Shown piece by piece: positions 47,828 to 57,288 of a DNA stretch of 64,000 nt. Source of the stretch: Lysobacter avium (GTDB lineage Bacteria; Pseudomonadota; Gammaproteobacteria; Xanthomonadales; Xanthomonadaceae). Made by a program: the position numbers and the translations under genes. Position 1 is the stretch's first letter. The number at the start of each line of letters is the position of its first letter. The notes under the pieces are model-generated. The model was not told where the DNA came from and did no database searches. It saw nothing but the letters and a program-made list of their open reading frames with translations. The DNA lies in contig NZ_CP063657.1 in assembly GCF_015209745.1 (NCBI RefSeq), positions 558,001 to 622,000 on the forward strand. The letters run 5' to 3'.

Positions 47828-49021
47828 TCAGTCCTTCAGCACACCCAACTCGCGCCCGATGCGGACGAACGCCTCAATGGCCTGGTCGAGCTGCTCGCGT
47901 GTGTGCGCTGCGCTGATCTGGGTGCGGATGCGCGCCTCGCCCTGGGGTACCACGGGGAAGAAGAACCCGATCGCGTAGATGCCTTCATCCAGCAAGCGGT
48001 CGGCGAACTTCTGGGCCATCGGCGCGTCGTACAACATCACGGGGACGATGGGATGGTTGCCGGGCTTGAGGTCGAAGCCGGCGGCGGTCATTTTTTCGCG
48101 GAAGTAACGCGTGTTCTCCTCCAGCGTGGTGCGCATGGCGTCGGCGCCGGCCAGCATCTGGAACGCCCTGGTCCCGGCCGCGACGACATGCGGCGGCAGC
48201 GAGTTGGAGAACAGGTACGGGCGTGAACGCTGGCGCAGCAGTTCGATCACTTCCTTCTTGCCGGTCGTGAAGCCGCCCACCGCGCCGCCCATGGCCTTGC
48301 CCAGGGTGCCGGTGAAGATATCGATGCGGTCCATGACACCCTTGAGTTCGGCCGAGCCCCGGCCGGTGGCGCCGATGAAGCCGGTCGCGTGGCAGTCGTC
48401 GATATGCACCATGGCGCCGTACTTTTCGGCGAGCGCGCAGATCTGGTCCAGCGGGGCGACGAAACCGTCCATCGAGAACACGCCGTCGGTCGTGATCAGC
48501 TTGGTCTTGCAGCCGGCGGCTTCCGCGGCCTGCAACTGCTTTTCCAGGTCGGCCATGTCGCAGTTGGCGTAGCGGAAGCGCTGGGCCTTGCACAGGCGCA
48601 CACCGTCGATGATCGATGCGTGGTTGAGGCTGTCGGAAATGACTGCGTCGTCGGGCCCCAACAGCGGATCGTACAGGCCGCCGTTCGCGTCGAAGCAGGA
48701 GGCATAGAGGATGGTGTCCTCAGTGCCGAAGAAGTCGGCGATCGTCTCCTCCAGCTCCTTGTGCAGGTCCTGGGTGCCGCAGATGAAGCGGACGGACGCC
48801 ATGCCGAAACCGTGGGAATCCAGCGCGTCCTTGGCGGCCTGGATGAGGTCGGGATGATCGGCCAGGCCGAGGTAGTTGTTGGCGCAGAAGTTCAGCACCG
48901 TGCTGCCGTCTTCCAGGGTGATCTGCGCCGACTGCGGGCTGCTGATCACACGCTCGGACTTGAACAGGCCGGCCTCGCGGATTTCCTCGAGGCTGGTGGC
49001 GTAACGCTTGGTCAGGGACAT
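47828..49021 (-). CDS. kbl: Glycine C-acetyltransferase (2-amino-3-ketobutyrate CoA ligase)
   Basis: PLP enzyme that cleaves 2-amino-3-ketobutyrate with CoA into glycine and acetyl-CoA, the second step of threonine breakdown; 397 residues. Signature parts are [34 protein letters not shown], the aspartate-His region [18 protein letters not shown] and the PLP lysine in GTLGKAMGG. Downstream of tdh on the same strand with a 100-nt gap, so likely one operon. Confidence 0.96.
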
Positions 49022-49121
49022 GGCGGCTCCAGAAAGCAGTGGTCGATGTCGGTCGCTGCGCGCAGGTCGCGGTGGCGCGGCGTCGGTAAAACGCGGAGTG
49101 CGGCGGGCGAGCGGCGCGGAC

Positions 49122-50144
49122 TCAATTCCAGCTGAGTACGATCTTGCCCGACTGGCCGGCTTCCATGAGGTCGAAGCCCTTCTGGAACTCGTCCACCGGC
49201 AGCTGGTGGGTCAGCACCTTGCCCAGCGGGAATCCGCCCAGCACCAGTTGGGTCATCTTGTACCAGGTCTCGTACATCTTCCGCCCGTAGATGCCGTGCA
49301 GGGTCAGGCCCTTGAAGATGATCTTGTCCCAGTCGGCGCCGGCGCCCTGGGGCATGATCCCGAGCAGCGCGATCTTGCCGCCGTGGTACATGCAATCGAG
49401 CATGTCGTTGAAGGCACGCGCGTTGCCGCTCATCTCCAGGCCGACGTCAAAGCCCTCCATGTGCAGGTCCTTCATCACGTCCTTCAACGAGGTGTTGGCG
49501 ACGTTGACCACGCGGGTGGCGCCCATGTCGGCGGCGAGTTTGAGCCGGTAGTCGTTGACGTCGGTGACCACCACGTTGCGCGCGCCGATGTGCTTGCAGA
49601 TGCCCGCCGCGATGATGCCGATCGGGCCGGCGCCGGTGATCAGCACGTCCTCGCCGACCACGTTGAACTCCAGCGCACAGTGCGCGGCGTTGCCGTAGGG
49701 GTCGAAGAACGCGGCCAGCTCGCTGGGGATCTGGTCGGGGATGGGCCACAGGTTGGTCGCCGGCATCACGATGTACTCGGCGAACGCGCCGTTGCGGTTG
49801 ACGCCGATGCCGACGGTGTTGGGGCACAGGTGCTGGCGGCCGCCGCGGCAATTGCGGCAGTGGCCGCAGACGATGTGGCCTTCGGCGGAGACGCGCTGGC
49901 CGACGCGGTAGCCGGTGACGCCGGGGCCGAGGTCCACGATGCGCCCCACGAACTCGTGACCGATCACCAGGCCCGGCTGGATGGTGCGCTGGCTCCACTC
50001 ATCCCACAGGTAGATGTGCAGGTCGGTGCCGCAGATCGCGGTCTTCTCCAGCTTTATGAGGACCTCGTTGGCACCGGCGGTTGGCACCGGGACGTCCTCC
50101 ATCCAGATGCCTTTGCCGGCTTCGCGCTTGACCAGCGCCTTCAT
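49122..50144 (-). CDS. tdh: L-threonine 3-dehydrogenase
   Basis: Zinc alcohol-dehydrogenase family enzyme that oxidises threonine to 2-amino-3-ketobutyrate with NAD. From [21 protein letters not shown] the length is 340 residues, matching E. coli Tdh (341). The catalytic zinc Cys lies in CGTDLH and the structural zinc site is [15 protein letters not shown]; the NAD site is [11 protein letters not shown]. An in-frame Met at 50201 would add 19 residues. Neither start has a convincing Shine-Dalgarno. Read divergently from the first S46 peptidase. Confidence 0.94.
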
Positions 50145-50381
50145 CGTGGAGGGGATCGAGTGCGCTGCGGAGGGCTGCGCGATGGCAATGGTGTCGGACA
50201 TGGATGGCCTGGCGGAAACGGCGGATTGAGGGCCAATTGTACCGGCCGCGCCTTCGGCCCCGATGACGGACCTTGCACGCGCCGGTCCGGCGCCCCGACC
50301 GAAGGCATGACCGTTGGCGGTTGCGGACCGTCGCTGGCATTGCTTATCGTCGACGGTTGCACAACACAGACCGGGGCACCC

Positions 50382-52559
50382 GTGACCTTTCGACTCCTCT
50401 CGGCGGCCCTGACCGTCGCGCTCGCATCCACCGCCGCCCACGCCGATGAAGGCATGTGGCAACCCCGCCAGATGCCCGAGCTGGCAGCGCAGCTCAAGGC
50501 GCGCGGCCTGGAGATGGACCCGGCGGCGTTGTCCAACCTGGCCGGCAAGCCGCTGGATGCCGTCATCAGCTTGGGCGGCTGCACGGCAAGCTTCGTGTCA
50601 CCTACCGGCCTGGTGGTGAGCAACCACCACTGCGTCTACGGCGCGGTGCAGTACAACTCCACGCCCGAGCGCGACCTGCTCAGCGACGGCTTCGTGGCCA
50701 GGACACTCGCCGACGAGCTGCCCGCCGAGCCCAATGCGCGCATCTACGTCACCCAGGAGATCGAGGACGTCACTGCCCGCATCACCGACGGGCTGGACGG
50801 GCTGGATGGCAAGGCGCGCTACGACACCGTGGAATCGCGCAGCAAGGCACTGGTGGCCGAGTGCGAGGCGCCCGGCGGCCTGCGCTGCAACGTCTACAAC
50901 TTCCACGGCGGACTGCAGTTCTCGCTGATCCGGCAGCTGGAGATCCGCGACGTGCGCCTGGTGTATGCGCCGTCGGATGCGATCGGCAAGTTCGGCGGCG
51001 ATGAGGACAACTTCGAGTGGCCGCGGCACACCGGCGACTTCGGTTTCCTGCGCGCCTACGTCGGCAAGGACGGCAAGCCGGCGGCGTACTCCGCGGACAA
51101 CGTGCCCTACCGGCCGGCGAGCTGGCTGACGGTGTCCCAGCAGCCGCTGGAGGAGGGCGACTACGTCATGGTGACGGGCTACCCGGGTTCCACCGACCGC
51201 TACCGCCTGCCGGGCGAGGTCAAGCAGGCGATCGACTGGCGTTATCCGACCATGGTGGGCTACTTCGGCGACTACCTGGCCACGATTGACCGCACGACTG
51301 CTGGCGACAAGGCGGCGGCGCTCAAGTACGCCTCCACCGTGGCCGGCATCAACAACGTGCTCAAGCTGTATCAGGGCAACCTGGACGGGTTCGCCCAGAT
51401 GGACGATCCGGTGGGCATGAAGCAGGCGCGCGAGGACGCGCTGGAGGCGTGGCTGGGCAAGCGCGGCAGCGAAGGCCGCGCACAGCTGGCCGCCATCCGC
51501 GCACTGGAGAAAGAGCTGGCCGAGGACCGCGCGACCCGTGAGCGCGACCTGTGGTTCAACACGGTTCTGGGCGGTGGCCTGCCCGGCGTGGCGGTCAACC
51601 TGTACCGCAACGCGATCGAGCAGGCCAAGCCGGACGCGGAGCGCAAGCCGGGCTATCAGGATCGCGATGCGCCGCGCATTGCCGGTTCGATGACCGCGTT
51701 CGACAAGCGCTACGACGCCAGGGTGGACCAGGCGCTGTTGTCGCTGCGCCTGCAGCGCTACGCCAGCCAGGTGCCCGCTCCGCAGCGCGTGGCGGCGCTC
51801 GACCGCTGGCTCGGCATCAGCGCCAGCGACAAGACCATACCCGGACTGGATGCCAAGCTGGACGCGCTCTATGCCGGCTCCAAGCTGGGCGACGCCGACA
51901 CGCGGCTGGCCCTGCTGAAGGCGGACAAGGCGGCGATCGAGGCCTCCGATGACGCCGCCCTGCAGCTGGCCGTGGCGATGATGCCGACCGTGCTGCAGAT
52001 CGAAGCCGAGGCCGAAGCCCGCTCCGGCCGGATCTCGGCGCTGCGGCCGAAGTACATGCAGGCGATGATCGATTTCAACCAGTCGCAGGGCAAGCCGGTG
52101 TATCCGGATGCCAACAGCTCGCTGCGCATCACCTTCGGCACCGTGAAGGGCTACTCGCCGCGCGACGGCGTGCAGATGACCCCGTTCACCACGCTGGCCG
52201 GCATCGTCGCCAAGACCACCGGCAAGGAGCCTTTCATCACCCCGCAGGCCGAGCTCGACGCGATTGCCGCCGGCAAGGGCGCGCAGTACCGGATGGATTC
52301 GCTGGGCGACGTGCCGGTGAACTTCCTCAGCGACGTGGACACCACCGGCGGCAACTCCGGCTCGCCGACGTTGAACTCCAAGGGCGAACTGGTCGGCCTC
52401 CTCTTTGACGGCAACTACGAAAGCCTCAGCGCCGGCTGGATCTTCAACCCCGAACTGACCCGCTCGATCCACGTCGATACCCGCTACATGCGCTGGGTAA
52501 TGGACGAGGTCGACCACGCTGAACACCTCCTGGAGGAGATGGGACTGCCGCATGACTGA
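50382..52559 (+). CDS. S46 dipeptidyl-peptidase, copy 1 (DPP7-like)
   Basis: Secreted serine exopeptidase that removes N-terminal dipeptides from peptides; 725 residues from a GTG start. Signal peptide [21 protein letters not shown], then the family opening DEGMWQP. Catalytic His lies in VVSNHHC (about residue 83), Asp in [16 protein letters not shown], and Ser659 in GGNSGSP. Residue +18 from the Ser is Gly (FDGN), the DPP7-type choice for hydrophobic P1. It overlaps copy 2 by 8 nt. Confidence 0.93.
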
Positions 52560-54732
52560 CACCAACGAAAACCTGAAGACCGCCGTGCGCGGCGTCCTGC
52601 TGGCCACTGCGGCCGGCCTCGCATTCGGCGCCCACGCCGACGAAGGAATGTGGATGCCGTCGCAGTTGCCGCAGATCGCCGACCAGCTGGCCGCCGCCGG
52701 CTACAAGGGCGATCCGGCCGCACTGGCCGACCTGACCCGCCCGCCGATGAGCGCGGTGGTGTCGCTGGGCGGCTGCACCGCCAGCTTCGTGTCGCCGCAG
52801 GGTCTGGTGGTCACCAACCACCACTGTGCCTACGGCGCGATCCAGCTCAATTCCACGCCGCAGAACAACCTGATGGCGGACGGCTTCAATGCCGCCACGC
52901 TCAAAGATGAAGTCTCCGCCGGCCCCGCCGCCCGTGTGTTCGTGACCACGGACTTTGACCGGGTCACCGACCGCGTGCTGGCGGATGCCCGCGGGAAATC
53001 CGGTCGCGACTACTACGACGCGGTCGATGCGGCGAGCAAGGCGCTGGTGGCCGAGTGCGAGCAGGATGCCGGGTACCGCTGCAGCGTCGCCAACATGTAC
53101 TACGGCACCGATTTCTACCTGGTCAAGCAACTCGAGCTCAAGGACATCCGGTTGGTCTACGCACCGCCCGAGTCGATCGGCAAGTACGGCGGCGAAATCG
53201 ACAACTTCATGTGGCCACGCCACAGCGGCGACTTCGCGTTCTACCGCGCCTATGTCGGCCGCGACGGCAAGCCGGCCGCGTTCTCGCCCGACAACGTGCC
53301 CTACCGGCCCAAGGCGTTCCTCGAGGTGTCGACGGACCCGGTTGCCGAGGGCGACTTTGCCATGCTGGCCGGGTACCCGGGCCGCACGTTCCGCCACCGC
53401 ACCGCAGCGGAGTTCGCCGACCAGGTAGGCACCCAGCTGCCCGAGCGCGTGGATCTGTATGCCGCGATGATCGACACCATCGAGCGCGCCGCCGCCAATG
53501 ACGCCGATGCCGGCGTGCTCTACGCCTCGCAGGTCGCGAGCATGAAGAACAACCTCAAACGCGCGCAGGGTGAGCTCGACGGCCTGCGCCGCAGCGATGC
53601 GGTCGGCGTGCGCAAGCGCGACGAGGCCGCGATGCTGGCCTGGCTCGACAAACAGCCCGATGCCGCCAACGCCCGTCGCGACATCGATGCGGCGGCCGCG
53701 GTCATCGCCCAGTCGCAGGCCACGCGCGAGCGCGACCAGTTATTCGGGATGATGCGCAGCCAGACCCAGTTGCTCAAAAGCGCCATGCAGCTGCAGCGAC
53801 TCGCGGTCGAGCGGGCCAAGCCCGACGCGGAGCGCGAAACCGGCTACCAGCTGCGTGACGAGGCGCAGATCGAGGCCTCGCTCAAGCAGGTCCAGCGCCG
53901 TTACGCCCCGCAGGTGGAAAAGGCCCTGCTGGCCGAGCTGCTGACCCGCTACCGCGCACTGCCCGCCAATCAGCGCATTGCCGAGCTGGACGCCGTGTTT
54001 GGCGCCGACAAGGCCCAGGCCGCCGCCGCGCTGGACACGCTCTACAGCGGCACCCGACTTGACGAAGAGGCGGAACGCCTGCGCCTGCTCGCCGCCGATC
54101 CCGCGGAGATCGCCGCGTCCACCGATCCGTTGATGCAGGCTGCTGCGACGTTGCTGCCGGCCCAGTTGCGAATCGCTGATGCGGACAAGTCCAGTGACGG
54201 CGAACTGCTGCGCCTGCGGCCGGCCTACATGCGCGCGCTGATCGGCTTCCGTGAGTCGCAGGGGCAGGCGGTCTACCCCGACGCCAACTCGACCCTGCGG
54301 GTGAGCTACGGCAAGGTCAGTTCGCTGGATCCGCGCGACGGCGTCCACTACACCCCGCTGACCACCGTGCAGGGCATCGTCGAGAAACACACCGGCGAGG
54401 ATCCTTTCGACGCCCCGCAGACCCTGCGCGACGCGATCGCCAAGGGCGACTTCGGCAGCACCGTCGATCCCGTGCTGGGCACCCAGACGGTCAACCTGAT
54501 GACCAACCTGGACACCACCGGCGGCAACTCCGGATCGCCCGTAATGGATGCCAACGGGAAGCTGATCGGCCTCAACTTCGACAGCAACTGGGAGGCGGTC
54601 AGCGCCAGCTGGATGTACGACCCGCGCTACAAGCGGGCCATCCACGTCGACGTTCGCTACCTGCGCTGGTTGATGGGCAAGGTGTATCCGGCACCGAACC
54701 TGTTGCGGGAAATGGAATTGCCGTTGGAGTAG
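52552..54732 (+). CDS. S46 dipeptidyl-peptidase, copy 2 (DPP11-like by key residue)
   Basis: 726 residues. The N-terminal export signal runs to about residue 29 (GVLLATAAGLAFGAHA), followed by DEGMWMP. The triad regions are VVTNHHC, GGEIDNFMWPRHSGDF and GGNSGSP (Ser660). Residue +18 is Ser (FDSN). In the family, Gly versus Arg/Ser at this place separates DPP7 (hydrophobic P1) from DPP11 (Asp/Glu P1), so an acidic-P1 enzyme is inferred. The ATG overlaps the end of copy 1, suggesting coupled translation. Confidence 0.92.
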   Translation: MTDTNENLKTAVRGVLLATAAGLAFGAHADEGMWMPSQLPQIADQLAAAGYKGDPAALADLTRPPMSAVVSLGGCTASFVSPQGLVVTNHHCAYGAIQLNSTPQNNLMADGFNAATLKDEVSAGPAARVFVTTDFDRVTDRVLADARGKSGRDYYDAVDAASKALVAECEQDAGYRCSVANMYYGTDFYLVKQLELKDIRLVYAPPESIGKYGGEIDNFMWPRHSGDFAFYRAYVGRDGKPAAFSPDNVPYRPKAFLEVSTDPVAEGDFAMLAGYPGRTFRHRTAAEFADQVGTQLPERVDLYAAMIDTIERAAANDADAGVLYASQVASMKNNLKRAQGELDGLRRSDAVGVRKRDEAAMLAWLDKQPDAANARRDIDAAAAVIAQSQATRERDQLFGMMRSQTQLLKSAMQLQRLAVERAKPDAERETGYQLRDEAQIEASLKQVQRRYAPQVEKALLAELLTRYRALPANQRIAELDAVFGADKAQAAAALDTLYSGTRLDEEAERLRLLAADPAEIAASTDPLMQAAATLLPAQLRIADADKSSDGELLRLRPAYMRALIGFRESQGQAVYPDANSTLRVSYGKVSSLDPRDGVHYTPLTTVQGIVEKHTGEDPFDAPQTLRDAIAKGDFGSTVDPVLGTQTVNLMTNLDTTGGNSGSPVMDANGKLIGLNFDSNWEAVSASWMYDPRYKRAIHVDVRYLRWLMGKVYPAPNLLREMELPLE

Positions 54733-54760
54733 GCGGGCGGACAGGGCGCCTCGTCGCGGG

Positions 54761-54852
54761 CAGGGGGTGAACGCCCTTGCTGCGAATGTCCCCCGGCACC
54801 GGTGAAGCCGGTGCCTCCTCCTTTACTTCGCCGCAAGGGCATCCACCCACTG
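54761..54852 (+). repeat. Structured repeat, copy A
   Basis: Folds as an outer stem (54761-54786 with 54827-54852; the inner 14 bp, 54773-54786/54827-54840, match at 13 positions), an internal loop, and an inner stem GGCACCGG/CCGGTGCC (54795-54802/54808-54815) with a TGAAG loop. The internal-loop strands are TGTCCCCC (54787-54794) and TCCTCCTTTAC (54816-54826). Confidence 0.7.
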
Positions 54853-54915
54853 AGGTCTGGCACGACGGTGGGTCACAACCGCAAGCCGCCCCGCACGGCG
54901 CGACGTGCCAGCATG

Positions 54916-55011
54916 GGGCGAGCTGTATGTCTTCGGGGCGAAATAAAGGAGGAGGCCGCCGCCGCAGGCGGTGGCCGGGGGACATTCGCCCCGGAGACAT
55001 GCAGCTCGCCC
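54916..55011 (-). repeat. Structured repeat, copy B (inverted)
   Basis: Same layout as copy A on the opposite strand. Outer arms 54916-54942 and 54985-55011 are 27 nt with only two non-Watson-Crick positions, both G-T. Inner stem GGCCGCCGCC/GGCGGTGGCC is at 54954-54963/54967-54976 with a GCA loop. Internal-loop strands are ATAAAGGAGGA (54943-54953) and GGGGGACA (54977-54984), complements of those in copy A except one base, while the stems differ. Confidence 0.75.
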
Positions 55012-55042
55012 GACCCCGTAGTCCTCGCCCGACCCCGTAGTC
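55005..55042. repeat. 19-bp perfect tandem repeat (two units)
   Basis: CTCGCCCGACCCCGTAGTC occurs twice head to tail at 55005-55023 and 55024-55042. The first unit overlaps the right arm of repeat copy B by 7 nt. Confidence 0.9.
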
Positions 55043-55125
55043 CCCGTCACCTGCGGGCCAACGCGCCGGACGCACACTCTCCGGCAGGCTAAAATCACCG
55101 ATTCGACATCGGCAGGAGCACTTGC

Positions 55126-57288
55126 ATGCGTTATTCGATATTGACCGCTGCCATCGCGTTGACAGGCGTCATGGGGTCGGCGGTGGCCGGCGAGGGCATG
55201 TGGGTGCCGCAGCAATTGCCGGAGATTTCCGCCGCTTTGCAGAAGGCCGGACTGGAATTGCCCGCCGAACAACTCGCCGACCTGACCGGCGACCCGATGG
55301 GCGCGGTGGTATCGCTGGGCGGCTGTACCGCCAGCTTTGTGTCGCCGCAGGGTCTGGTGGTCACCAACCACCATTGTGCTTACGGCGCCATCCAGCTCAA
55401 CTCGACGCCGGAAAACAACCTGATCGAGGACGGCTTCAATGCCGCGGCAAAGGAGCGCGAAGTATCGGCCGGGCCGAACGCGCGCATCTATGCGCTGGAC
55501 TCGATCCGCGACGTGACCCGCGATGTCCGCGCCGCCATCGACGCAGCTCCGGATGCGCTGGGCCGCACGCGCGCGCTGGAGACCATCCAGAAACAACTGG
55601 TGGCCGACTGCGAGGCCGATCCCGGATACCGCTGCCAGTTCTACAGCTTCGCCGGCGGCAACACCTACCGCCTGTTCAAGAACCTGGAAATCAAGGACGT
55701 GCGCCTGGTCTATGCGCCGCCCAACAGCATCGGCAGCTTCGGTGGCGATATCGACAACTGGATGTGGCCGCGCCACACCGGTGATTTCGCCTTCTACCGC
55801 GCCTACGTCGGCAAGGACGGCAAGCCGGCGCCGTACTCGACCGACAACGTGCCCTACGAGCCGAAGCATTTCCTCAAGTTCGCCAGCCAGCCGCTGAACA
55901 TCGGAGATTTCGTGATGGTGGCCGGCTATCCGGGCCGGACCGCACGTTACGCCCTGGCCGAGGAATTCGACGCGACCGAGCAATGGACCTACCCGACCAT
56001 CAAGCGCCATTACGAGGCGATGGTGGATCTGGTCGAGGCGGCCGGCGCGAAGGACGAGGACATCAAGGTCAAGTACGCCAGCACGATCCGCGGCTGGCAG
56101 AACACGATGAAGAACTACGACGGCCAGCTGGAGGGCTTCCAGCGCATCAACGCCAGCAAGACCAAGCACGCCGAGGAGGCCGCGGTACTGGCCTGGCTGC
56201 GCGGGCAGGGCGCCAAGGGCGAGCCGGCGCTGCAGGCGCACGCACGCCTGCTGGAACTGGACGCCGCCGAGCGCGCGACCCGCGAGCGCGACCTGGTCTT
56301 CGGCCAGCTGATCCGCACCGGCGCGATCGGCGCGGCCACCGGCCTGTACCGGTTTGCGATCGAGGGCGAGAAGCCCGACGCACAACGCGATGCCGGCTAC
56401 CAGGCGCGCGACCTGCCGGGTTTCGAAGGCTCGCTGAAGCAGATGGAGCGCCGCTACGACGCCGGCATGGACCGCCAGCTGCAGCAGTACTGGCTGCGCG
56501 AGTACGTGAAGCTGCCGCAGGCACAGCACATCCCCGCGCTCGATGAATGGCTGGGCGGGAACGACGAGGCCGCGGTGCAGGCCGCGCTCGATCGCCTGGC
56601 CGGCACCAGCCTGGGCGATCTCGATACGCGCCTGAAGTTGATGCACGCCGACCGCGCGACACTGGAGGCCAGCAAGGATCCGGCCCTGCAACTGGCCGTC
56701 GCCCTGATGCCGACGATCCTGCAGAACAAGGAGCTCGACGAGATCCGCACCGGCGACGTGCTGCAGGCCCGCCCGGTGTACCTGCAGGCCGTCGCCGATT
56801 ACCGAGCCAGCCGCGGCGAATCGGTCTATCCGGACGCCAACTCCTCGCTGCGCATCACCTTTGGCAACGTGCAGGGCTACACCAAGCTGGACGGCAGCCG
56901 GCAGGCGGCGTTCACCACGCTGGAGCAGATCGCCGACAAGTCCACCGGCGTGGAGCCGTTCAACGCGCCCAGGGCGCAGCTCGACGCCATCGCCGCCAAG
57001 CGCTACGGCGGGCTCGCGAGCGAGGAGCTGGGCACGGTGCCGGTCAACTTCATGGCCGACCTGGACATCACCGGCGGCAACTCGGGCTCGCCGGCGATGG
57101 ATGCGCGCGGCGAGCTGGTCGGGCTGGTGTTCGACATGAACTGGGAAAGCGTCAGCTCCAACTGGGTGTTTGACCCCGACATGACCCGGGTGATCGCGGT
57201 CGATGGGCGCTACCTGCGCTGGGTCATGCAGGAGGCGTTCCCGGCGCCGCAGGTGCTGGAGGAGCTCGGCCTGCCTACCGGCCAGTGA
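55126..57288 (+). CDS. S46 dipeptidyl-peptidase, copy 3 (atypical specificity residue)
   Basis: 720 residues; signal peptide MRYSILTAAIALTGVMGSAVA followed by GEGMWVP. The triad regions [23 protein letters not shown] and GGNSGSP (Ser653) are intact, so it should be active. Residue +18 from the Ser is Met (FDMN), neither the DPP7 Gly nor the DPP11 Arg/Ser. It probably has its own promoter, since 393 nt of repeats separate it from copy 2; TAAAAT at 55090 is a candidate -10. Confidence 0.92.
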   Translation: MRYSILTAAIALTGVMGSAVAGEGMWVPQQLPEISAALQKAGLELPAEQLADLTGDPMGAVVSLGGCTASFVSPQGLVVTNHHCAYGAIQLNSTPENNLIEDGFNAAAKEREVSAGPNARIYALDSIRDVTRDVRAAIDAAPDALGRTRALETIQKQLVADCEADPGYRCQFYSFAGGNTYRLFKNLEIKDVRLVYAPPNSIGSFGGDIDNWMWPRHTGDFAFYRAYVGKDGKPAPYSTDNVPYEPKHFLKFASQPLNIGDFVMVAGYPGRTARYALAEEFDATEQWTYPTIKRHYEAMVDLVEAAGAKDEDIKVKYASTIRGWQNTMKNYDGQLEGFQRINASKTKHAEEAAVLAWLRGQGAKGEPALQAHARLLELDAAERATRERDLVFGQLIRTGAIGAATGLYRFAIEGEKPDAQRDAGYQARDLPGFEGSLKQMERRYDAGMDRQLQQYWLREYVKLPQAQHIPALDEWLGGNDEAAVQAALDRLAGTSLGDLDTRLKLMHADRATLEASKDPALQLAVALMPTILQNKELDEIRTGDVLQARPVYLQAVADYRASRGESVYPDANSSLRITFGNVQGYTKLDGSRQAAFTTLEQIADKSTGVEPFNAPRAQLDAIAAKRYGGLASEELGTVPVNFMADLDITGGNSGSPAMDARGELVGLVFDMNWESVSSNWVFDPDMTRVIAVDGRYLRWVMQEAFPAPQVLEELGLPTGQ

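Follow-up and report, generated by a model that had tools for sequence, protein, structure and literature searches.

The window analyzed here is a 64,000-nucleotide stretch of the Lysobacter avium genome (assembly GCF_015209745.1, contig NZ_CP063657.1, positions 558,001 to 622,000 of the forward strand). Two co-directional peptidase S46 genes lie on its plus strand at 52552..54732 and 55126..57288, and 28 nt past the stop codon of the first begins a repeat unit of ~250 bp, composed of two head-to-head hairpins, A and B. The window contains three consecutive peptidase S46 genes (49008-57288), and more paralogous DNA matches were seen close by.

Hairpin A (54761..54852) has its AGGAGGA strand on the minus strand and consists of an outer stem, an asymmetric internal loop and an inner 21-nt hairpin. 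In the minus-strand fold, the 5′ arm of the outer stem is 54827..54852 and the 3′ arm 54761..54786 (26 nt, complementarity 85%). The 5′ loop strand, TAAAGGAGGA, occupies 54816..54825, the inner hairpin 54795..54815 (exact-pattern row G000:C1:612787-612825, G000 being the L. avium genome) and the 3′ loop strand, GGGGGACA, 54787..54794. Hairpin B (54916..55011) has its AGGAGGA strand on the plus strand. Its arms, 54916-54942 and 54985-55011, are 27 nt long with 93% complementarity, and they enclose TAAAGGAGGA (54944..54953), an inner 23-nt hairpin (54954..54976; exact-pattern row G000:C1:612944-612984) and GGGGGACA (54977..54984). Both hairpins were matched by a covariance model of the repeat, A at G000:C1:612761-612852:- with 80.1 bits and B at G000:C1:612917-613010:+ with 104 bits. 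The spacer between their 5′ feet (54853..54915) is part of the repeated unit, as judged from whole-unit and spacer alignments. Two perfect tandem 19-nt copies (55005..55042, plus strand) mark the outer edge of hairpin B.

The loop strands (5′, [A/G]TAAAGGAGGA; 3′, GGGGGACA) are the same in A and B, and the outer and inner stems differ. A sequence-only reading of this DNA had described two inverted structured copies with common loops and different but pairing stems; the positions, complementarity and loop identity are all borne out, as is its remark that the only two outer-arm differences in B are G-T pairs (both T.G on the plus strand). The predicted RNA folds are strong. The plus strand of B folds at -79.9 kcal/mol (z -10.3) and the minus strand of A at -59.4 kcal/mol (z -5.3), energies reached by none of 200 shuffles in either case, and the opposite strands fold more weakly (B, -66.8 kcal/mol; A, -52.1 kcal/mol). 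The same reading had singled out AGGAGG in the loop as a Shine-Dalgarno match. AAGGAGG in the loop does complement the presumed 16S 3′ end of the L. avium genome (...ACCTCCTTA), and to that extent, as a match between sequences and nothing beyond, the observation holds.

Size and Distribution of the Family

The pattern TAAAGGAGGA N10-40 GGGGGACA has 29 exact matches in the 2,854,808-bp single-contig L. avium genome. The reversed pattern, used as a control, has none, so the repeat does not reflect chance. The covariance model finds 35 copies in the same genome. The sequence-only reading had allowed for the outcome that no further copies existed; these two counts, from the window's own genome, dispose of it. 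In five congeners the model finds 41, 39, 31, 26 and 2 copies and in four others none at E 0.001, with the best 150 first-look candidates scored per genome. One congener, G152, has 28 exact copies on a single contig.

Further afield, the exact pattern is present in 30 of 247 genomes and six of 54 genera sampled from the window's family, and a similar pattern was found in three of 369 genomes of a thin class-wide sample, every one from that family. A scan of named genomes returned at least 120 stretches with the pattern; among the 80 matches listed were Variovorax, Ramlibacter, Hydrogenophaga, Rhodoferax, Pseudorhodoferax, Stenotrophomonas, Luteimonas, Lysobacter antarcticus and others. The core of the repeat is thus shared by other Lysobacteraceae and by Burkholderiales. 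Viral contigs contained no copy of the exact pattern, and plasmids gave no blastn match to the window unit. Two contigs titled Bacillus subtilis SK7B5 (JAHREJ01; loci L120 and L147) contain this Proteobacterial element, perhaps reflecting a mislabelled or contaminated assembly.

None of 4227 Rfam families matched the window or 10 related loci at gathering scores. When 54700-55100 was scanned permissively, 10 families matched at 13-28 bits, well short of their gathering scores (43.7-268). No description of the element was found in the openly available abstracts and text searched; a search with four 12-mers of the core brought up papers whose titles look unrelated.

Dimer Architecture and Insertion History

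Adjacent copies in the L. avium genome are head-to-head in 15 of 16 pairs. The arrangement is the same in 107 of 115 distinct-spacer pairs from all loci used (seven are minus-minus and one plus-minus), orthologous pairs from related genomes being counted separately. The core-to-core head-to-head distance is 109-115 nt in 37 of 50 pairs from the collection loci, and in the window's genus mainly ~98-105 and 111-138 nt. The stems of dimer partners differ, and L. avium usually combines a short-inner type A with a long-inner type B hairpin. Including its spacer, the whole unit is ~71-80% similar across sites.

Presence and absence were followed at sites whose orthology was assigned by flank similarity. 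L. avium and the congeners G152, G185 and G169 have the unit at the window site; G133, G083, G109, G003, G055 and G201 do not. Hairpins occur in all four of the former at 12 of the 19 L. avium sites followed. G201 has hairpins at seven of the 19 and at seven loci of its own that group with no other genome; one of its copies (L332) lies ~2 kb from the window site, beside a paralogous S46 gene. This pattern indicates past movement of the unit, followed by inheritance at fixed sites.

Junctions were compared at the window site and at a G152 copy without a counterpart in four other genomes. The exact insertion ends are hidden because the empty sites have diverged or been rearranged nearby. The two 3′ feet, which form the unit ends, differ between A and B, and no target duplication was apparent by eye at these obscured junctions. 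Its size of ~250 bp, its dispersal and the lack of apparent coding capacity would suit a non-autonomous MITE derived from a DDE insertion sequence. Unit ends that differ, with no shared terminal inverted repeat and no target duplication by eye, argue against that origin, which we consider very improbable.

Several other features were observed at these sites. L. avium, G169 and G185 share ~9.3 kb (L458, G000:C1:2295600-2304900) between two genes; in G152 a copy of the unit takes its place. In G201, sites that elsewhere are filled with the unit or empty contain a different palindromic repeat, whose middle, GATCACCAAGCGAATNTCGTGGAGCGACTGA, is constant and whose arms vary; by eye, there are three copies at L270 (G201:C20:455100-456120) and one at L455 (G201:C1:552550-553350). 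This repeat may represent a second, similarly built hairpin family.

Short tandem duplications (19-59 nt) abut the outer edges of the unit on five of 36 sides, against none of 216 control stretches. Besides 55005-55042 in the window, they occur at sites s969 (L012), s1809 (L017), s1933 (L021) and s2841 (L029). At s1933 the duplicated piece ends in GGGGGACATT and so takes in part of the hairpin.

Genomic Setting

Of 18 L. avium sites, nine lie between convergent genes, two between tandem genes and two between divergent genes, and five are ambiguous. At least one called frame has its 3′ end toward the unit at 16 of the 18 sites, and within 40 nt at 10; these orientation counts rest on a crude frame caller. 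With the pair head-to-head, a transcript arriving from either side would contain the near hairpin as its complement, followed by the far one as the AGGAGGA strand. The two divergent sites count against a location in 3′ untranslated regions. Clusters of open frames at 80 collection loci, many of them apparently spurious and none assigned by profile, are little guide to a recurrent neighbor gene.

The facing 3′ ends would also be expected of an ordinary bidirectional transcription terminator that happens to be repeated. Two relatives in which the window site is empty, G003 (L273, G003:C24:32600-32800) and G055 (L274, G055:C7:36840-37050), have a plain GC hairpin right after the stop codon (by eye), which is in keeping with a terminator. 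However, TTTT was found within 20 nt outside the hairpin in none of 29 copies on either strand, and the absence of a T-run after the hairpins argues that they are not intrinsic terminators. Positions 54650-55150 contained no terminator-like or promoter-like site. A conserved loop and an insertion-like distribution are likewise unlike terminators, and we consider this explanation quite improbable.

Covariation and Conservation in Place

From 158 occurrences, which include orthologues and overlapping loci, we took 29 copies of equal inner length with no pair at 85% identity or above. Their alignment is gap-free and was not fitted to the structure, although the structure itself was read from these sequences. 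In this set 89.3% of cells are paired (64.5% when shuffled), 29 of 36 pairs show two-sided change (23.4 when shuffled), and the covariation score is 0.617, compared with 0.175 for shuffled and at most 0.150 for slid alignments. Reading the structure from the same sequences makes the slid control a generous one, but it does not explain an effect of this size.

Exact-pattern copies have constant loops by construction, so loop constancy was re-measured on G152 orthologues with the loops left free. In 31 hairpins orthologous between L. avium and G152, substitutions numbered 98/1364 in outer arms, 11/341 in the 5′ loop strand and 5/248 in the 3′ loop strand. At 14 orthologous site pairs from these genomes, the cores (loops plus inner hairpin) differed at 36/1235 positions (2.9%), outer arms at 98/1389 (7.1%) and spacers at 116/842 (13.8%). 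The flanks, which are part coding, differed at 230/2489 (9.2%), little above the outer arms.

Some compensatory change was caught in place. Among orthologous hairpins with at most six differences, two-sided changes from one Watson-Crick pair to another numbered five (L. avium/G152), three (L. avium/G185), one (G169/G185) and one (L. avium/G169), with 0-1 in slid controls and zero in each of the six slid controls for L. avium/G152. Other double changes numbered one, four, zero and two in the four comparisons, which share genomes. When up to 14 differences were admitted, L. avium/G152 gave eight two-sided Watson-Crick changes, three of them in one hairpin. Stems that differ without compensating changes, which the sequence-only reading would have taken as a sign of a chance or decaying duplication, were not the outcome.

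Template-switch repair of quasipalindromes could be the source of some of the two-sided changes. Taken as a full explanation, such correction would keep the arms complementary without selection, and covariation would be a mutational effect at cruciforms; the duplications at outer edges (5/36 versus 0/216) suggest replication slippage at the sites and are in keeping with it. It does not, however, predict that the unpaired loop evolves slowly. It also yields perfect Watson-Crick arms and is blind to the strand, so it fails to predict the one-strand mismatch bias (42:5, in both orientations) described below. We judge it unlikely.

Strand Asymmetry of Stem Mismatches

A transition at a paired base in a DNA duplex produces a G.T mismatch on one strand and an A.C mismatch on the other. 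Read on the AGGAGGA strand, the outer stems of the 29 L. avium copies have 42 G.T and five A.C mismatches (31 others). All 275 distinct copies together have 510 and 49 (600 others), and 91 non-redundant copies have 169 and 27. In L. avium the excess is found in both hairpin types (A, 14:2; B, 28:3) and on both genome strands (23:2 and 19:3), the latter of which argues against a mutation bias tied to the replication strand. In the inner stems the asymmetry is weak or absent (15:12 in L. avium, 75:48 overall).

The asymmetry recurs in changes between orthologues. With at most six differences per hairpin, one-sided changes between Watson-Crick and G.T pairs outnumber those between Watson-Crick and A.C pairs by 28:6 for L. 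avium/G152 (28 hairpins), 31:8 for L. avium/G185 (24), 20:2 for G169/G185 (15) and 21:1 for L. avium/G169 (14). A further 19 one-sided changes in L. avium/G152 created or removed a mismatch that was neither G.T nor A.C. Consistent with these ratios, the AGGAGGA strand has the lower RNA folding energy in 26 of 29 copies (mean -67.8 versus -59.8 kcal/mol).

Known Stenotrophomonas GTAG REPs, searched for in all loci collected in the analysis, served as a control. Their G.T:A.C ratio was 6:4 at up to two substitutions (80 matches), 11:11 at up to three (22 mismatches in all, from 97 matches against six for a control tag) and 31:37 at up to four (213 matches against 70). At five substitutions, where many matches are probably due to chance, it was 149:127. 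A version of the control based on tag plus palindrome was uninformative (80 tagged hairpins against 85 and 75 with control tags).

The asymmetry, together with the slower divergence of hairpins than of their own spacer, is why selection seems to act in place on the fold of one strand. Single-stranded DNA also tolerates G.T better than A.C, so the asymmetry alone is no proof of RNA. RNA, most simply at gene 3′ ends, would be the simplest carrier of the selected fold, with single-stranded DNA as the alternative.

Search for a Partner Transposase

The sequence-only reading had proposed looking for a REP-associated tyrosine transposase. Y1 transposase genes (PF01797) were sought in the L. avium genome, 21 of the 30 pattern-bearing genomes, 31 genomes in the genus of G071 and 16 genomes of collection loci; 21 hand-picked pattern-free genomes from the family were scored for gene presence only. 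In all, 88 Y1 loci (29, 29 and 30, at least three of them duplicated under two handles), a subset of the Y1 genes listed, were scanned to ~1.5 kb on each side, exactly in one set and more loosely in the others. The loop pair was found at none of the 88. Single motifs occur at a few: GGGGGACA in L390 and L409, and GGGGACA in L295, L303, L384, L386 and L394.

Y1 genes are present in 15 of the 21 pattern-bearing genomes tested and in 17 of the 21 pattern-free ones. The L. avium genome has one weak match, and the copy-rich congeners G152, G169 and G185 have none. The sole Y1 gene detected near a copy by tblastn (L122) is ~5 kb off. With no loop pair at any Y1 locus scanned and three copy-rich congeners lacking a Y1 match, the search turned up no such partner.

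Several Y1 loci have motifs of their own, GGGGTCAG, which form perfect palindromes in two of the loci examined. These resemble published descriptions of TIRYT loci, as far as excerpts of PMC3733652 and PMC6006769 show. In Stenotrophomonas, the Y1 genes at L382 and L381 are flanked by palindromes GGGGTCAGATCCCTTTCGC, perhaps the self-complementary TIR type described in part of PMC3733652.

Discussion

An old question about REP-like repeats is whether they are no more than DNA parasites or owe their retention to the RNA that they encode. The present family allows this to be tested directly: hairpins occur in all four related genomes at 12 of 19 sites, they evolve more slowly than the spacer between them, and a wobble bias names the selected strand.

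In a purely selfish DNA repeat of the REPIN or TIR kind, the fold would be what a tyrosine (HUH/Y1) transposase, supplied in trans, acts on as single-stranded DNA; if only fold and loop were recognized, the stems would be free to vary. Head-to-head dimers, heterodimers and intergenic dispersal do resemble published REP dimers, and GGGGACAT in the loop comes close to GGGGWSAS, the motif of TIRs at TIRYT genes, both as set out in excerpts of PMC3733652. Against this account, the loop pair is missing from all 88 Y1 loci, few of which have GGGGGACA or GGGGACA alone, and Y1 genes are as common in genomes without the pattern (17/21) as in those with it (15/21, plus L. avium). G152, G169 and G185, where copies abound, gave no Y1 match. 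Fixed orthologous copies that are conserved relative to the spacer and biased toward wobble pairs would also be unexpected of dead insertions. We therefore regard a purely selfish origin as rather doubtful. As far as tested, the transposase that usually accompanies such repeats is absent.

Alongside the observed copy number, pairing, covariation, strand asymmetry, conservation relative to the spacer and insertion-like presence and absence, the reading toward which we lean, at slightly better than even confidence, is that of an undescribed REPIN/BIME-like repeat that spread in trans and was then retained in place as a folded 3′-UTR RNA element. One copy would be a non-coding unit of ~250 bp, two non-identical hairpins head-to-head over a conserved spacer, which at some earlier time an enzyme acting in trans would have spread from site to site. 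Copies, most of them inserted downstream of genes, would then have been kept in place and folded as RNA, as the strand-specific selection suggests. Whichever side a gene is on, its mRNA would have the far hairpin close to its 3′ end and in the AGGAGGA orientation, and the 20-30 bp stem would be predicted to stop 3′-to-5′ exonucleases. The near-invariant internal loop, AAAGGAGGA/GGGGGACA, may be where a protein or the 16S tail makes contact.

A fuller version of this retained-RNA reading is more tentative, and we would not expect all of it to hold. Here, the element, present in Lysobacteraceae as well as Burkholderiales, would be a mobile 3′-UTR RNA that the host, in contrast to the GTAG REPs tested, selects for the fold of one strand and for its near-invariant loop; this loop, AAAGGAGGA/GGGGGACA, might recruit a specific partner, perhaps the 30S subunit via AAGGAGG or a dedicated RNA-binding protein, and so control how stable mRNA 3′ ends are at many unlinked genes. 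Should the loop bind a ligand, at least a score of sites per genome would share one post-transcriptional handle.

The sequence-only reading had offered two identities for the repeat, an undescribed RNA element or a REPIN-like mobile repeat. For the first, covariation, the one-strand G.T bias, some compensation in place and the lack of an Rfam match support selection on a fold. For the second, the dispersed head-to-head dimers (15/16 and 107/115) and insertion-like distribution agree with it, but a search for the predicted RAYT partner came up empty and no constant GT[AG]G tag was seen.

Comparison with Known Repeats

REPs are described, in the partial texts of PMC3733652 and PMC2817692, as intergenic palindromes in inverted and often heterodimeric pairs with variable stems, many at gene 3′ ends. 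In excerpts of PMC6006769, REPs with a hairpin-bulge-hairpin form go with subclass 2.2 of the TnpA Y1 family. Compared on that footing with GTAG REPs and the REPINs or BIMEs mobilized by RAYTs (TnpAREP), the window family is alike in its inverted dimers, intergenic position, variable stems and preference for gene 3′ ends. It differs in having a hairpin of ~95 nt instead of 20-40 and a nearly invariant 11+8 nt internal loop without a constant GT[AG]G foot: by eye, GT[AG]G occurs in the 27-nt 5′ foot region of just seven of 29 copies and at no fixed place. It differs further in lacking the loop pair at any scanned Y1 locus and in its strong G.T-over-A.C asymmetry, of which GTAG REPs showed none in this analysis. 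It fails two tested hallmarks, tag and cognate transposase, and so we do not file it as a GTAG REP.

TIRYT genes are flanked by TIRs with a GGGGWSAS motif that occur as dimers or clusters in "moderately abundant" families, most of them in S. maltophilia, according to excerpts of Di Nocera et al. 2013 (PMC3733652). The near-GGGGWSAS motif and the dimers are common ground. GGGGACAT in the loop fits at seven of eight positions, with T as the last base instead of S, and it points outward from the unit, as opposed to the inward GGGGTCAG at the Y1 loci read. The Y1 loci have ends of the GGGGTCAG type, for example the palindrome GGGGTCAGATCCCTTTCGC, and not TAAAGGAGGA/GGGGGACA. The comparison with the published TIRs is one of motif descriptions, and the window family may be identical to one of the TIRs in Figure 9 of that paper.

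CGTC-tagged REPs, for which excerpts of the same source give dimers and no known dedicated transposase (PMC3733652), are similar in being dimeric and different in size and loop. The window family also has no constant CGTC tag; of 29 copies, six have CGTC in the 3′ foot region and 11 have GACG in the 5′ foot region. There is also a general likeness to bacterial MITEs such as the ERIC-like ones, which the portion of PMC3733652 covering them describes as transcribed intergenic units that fold near genes. In organization and behavior, the element is best likened to a REPIN or BIME: it is a dimeric repeat whose hairpins are large and whose loops are conserved, and there is evidence that it is under RNA-type selection.
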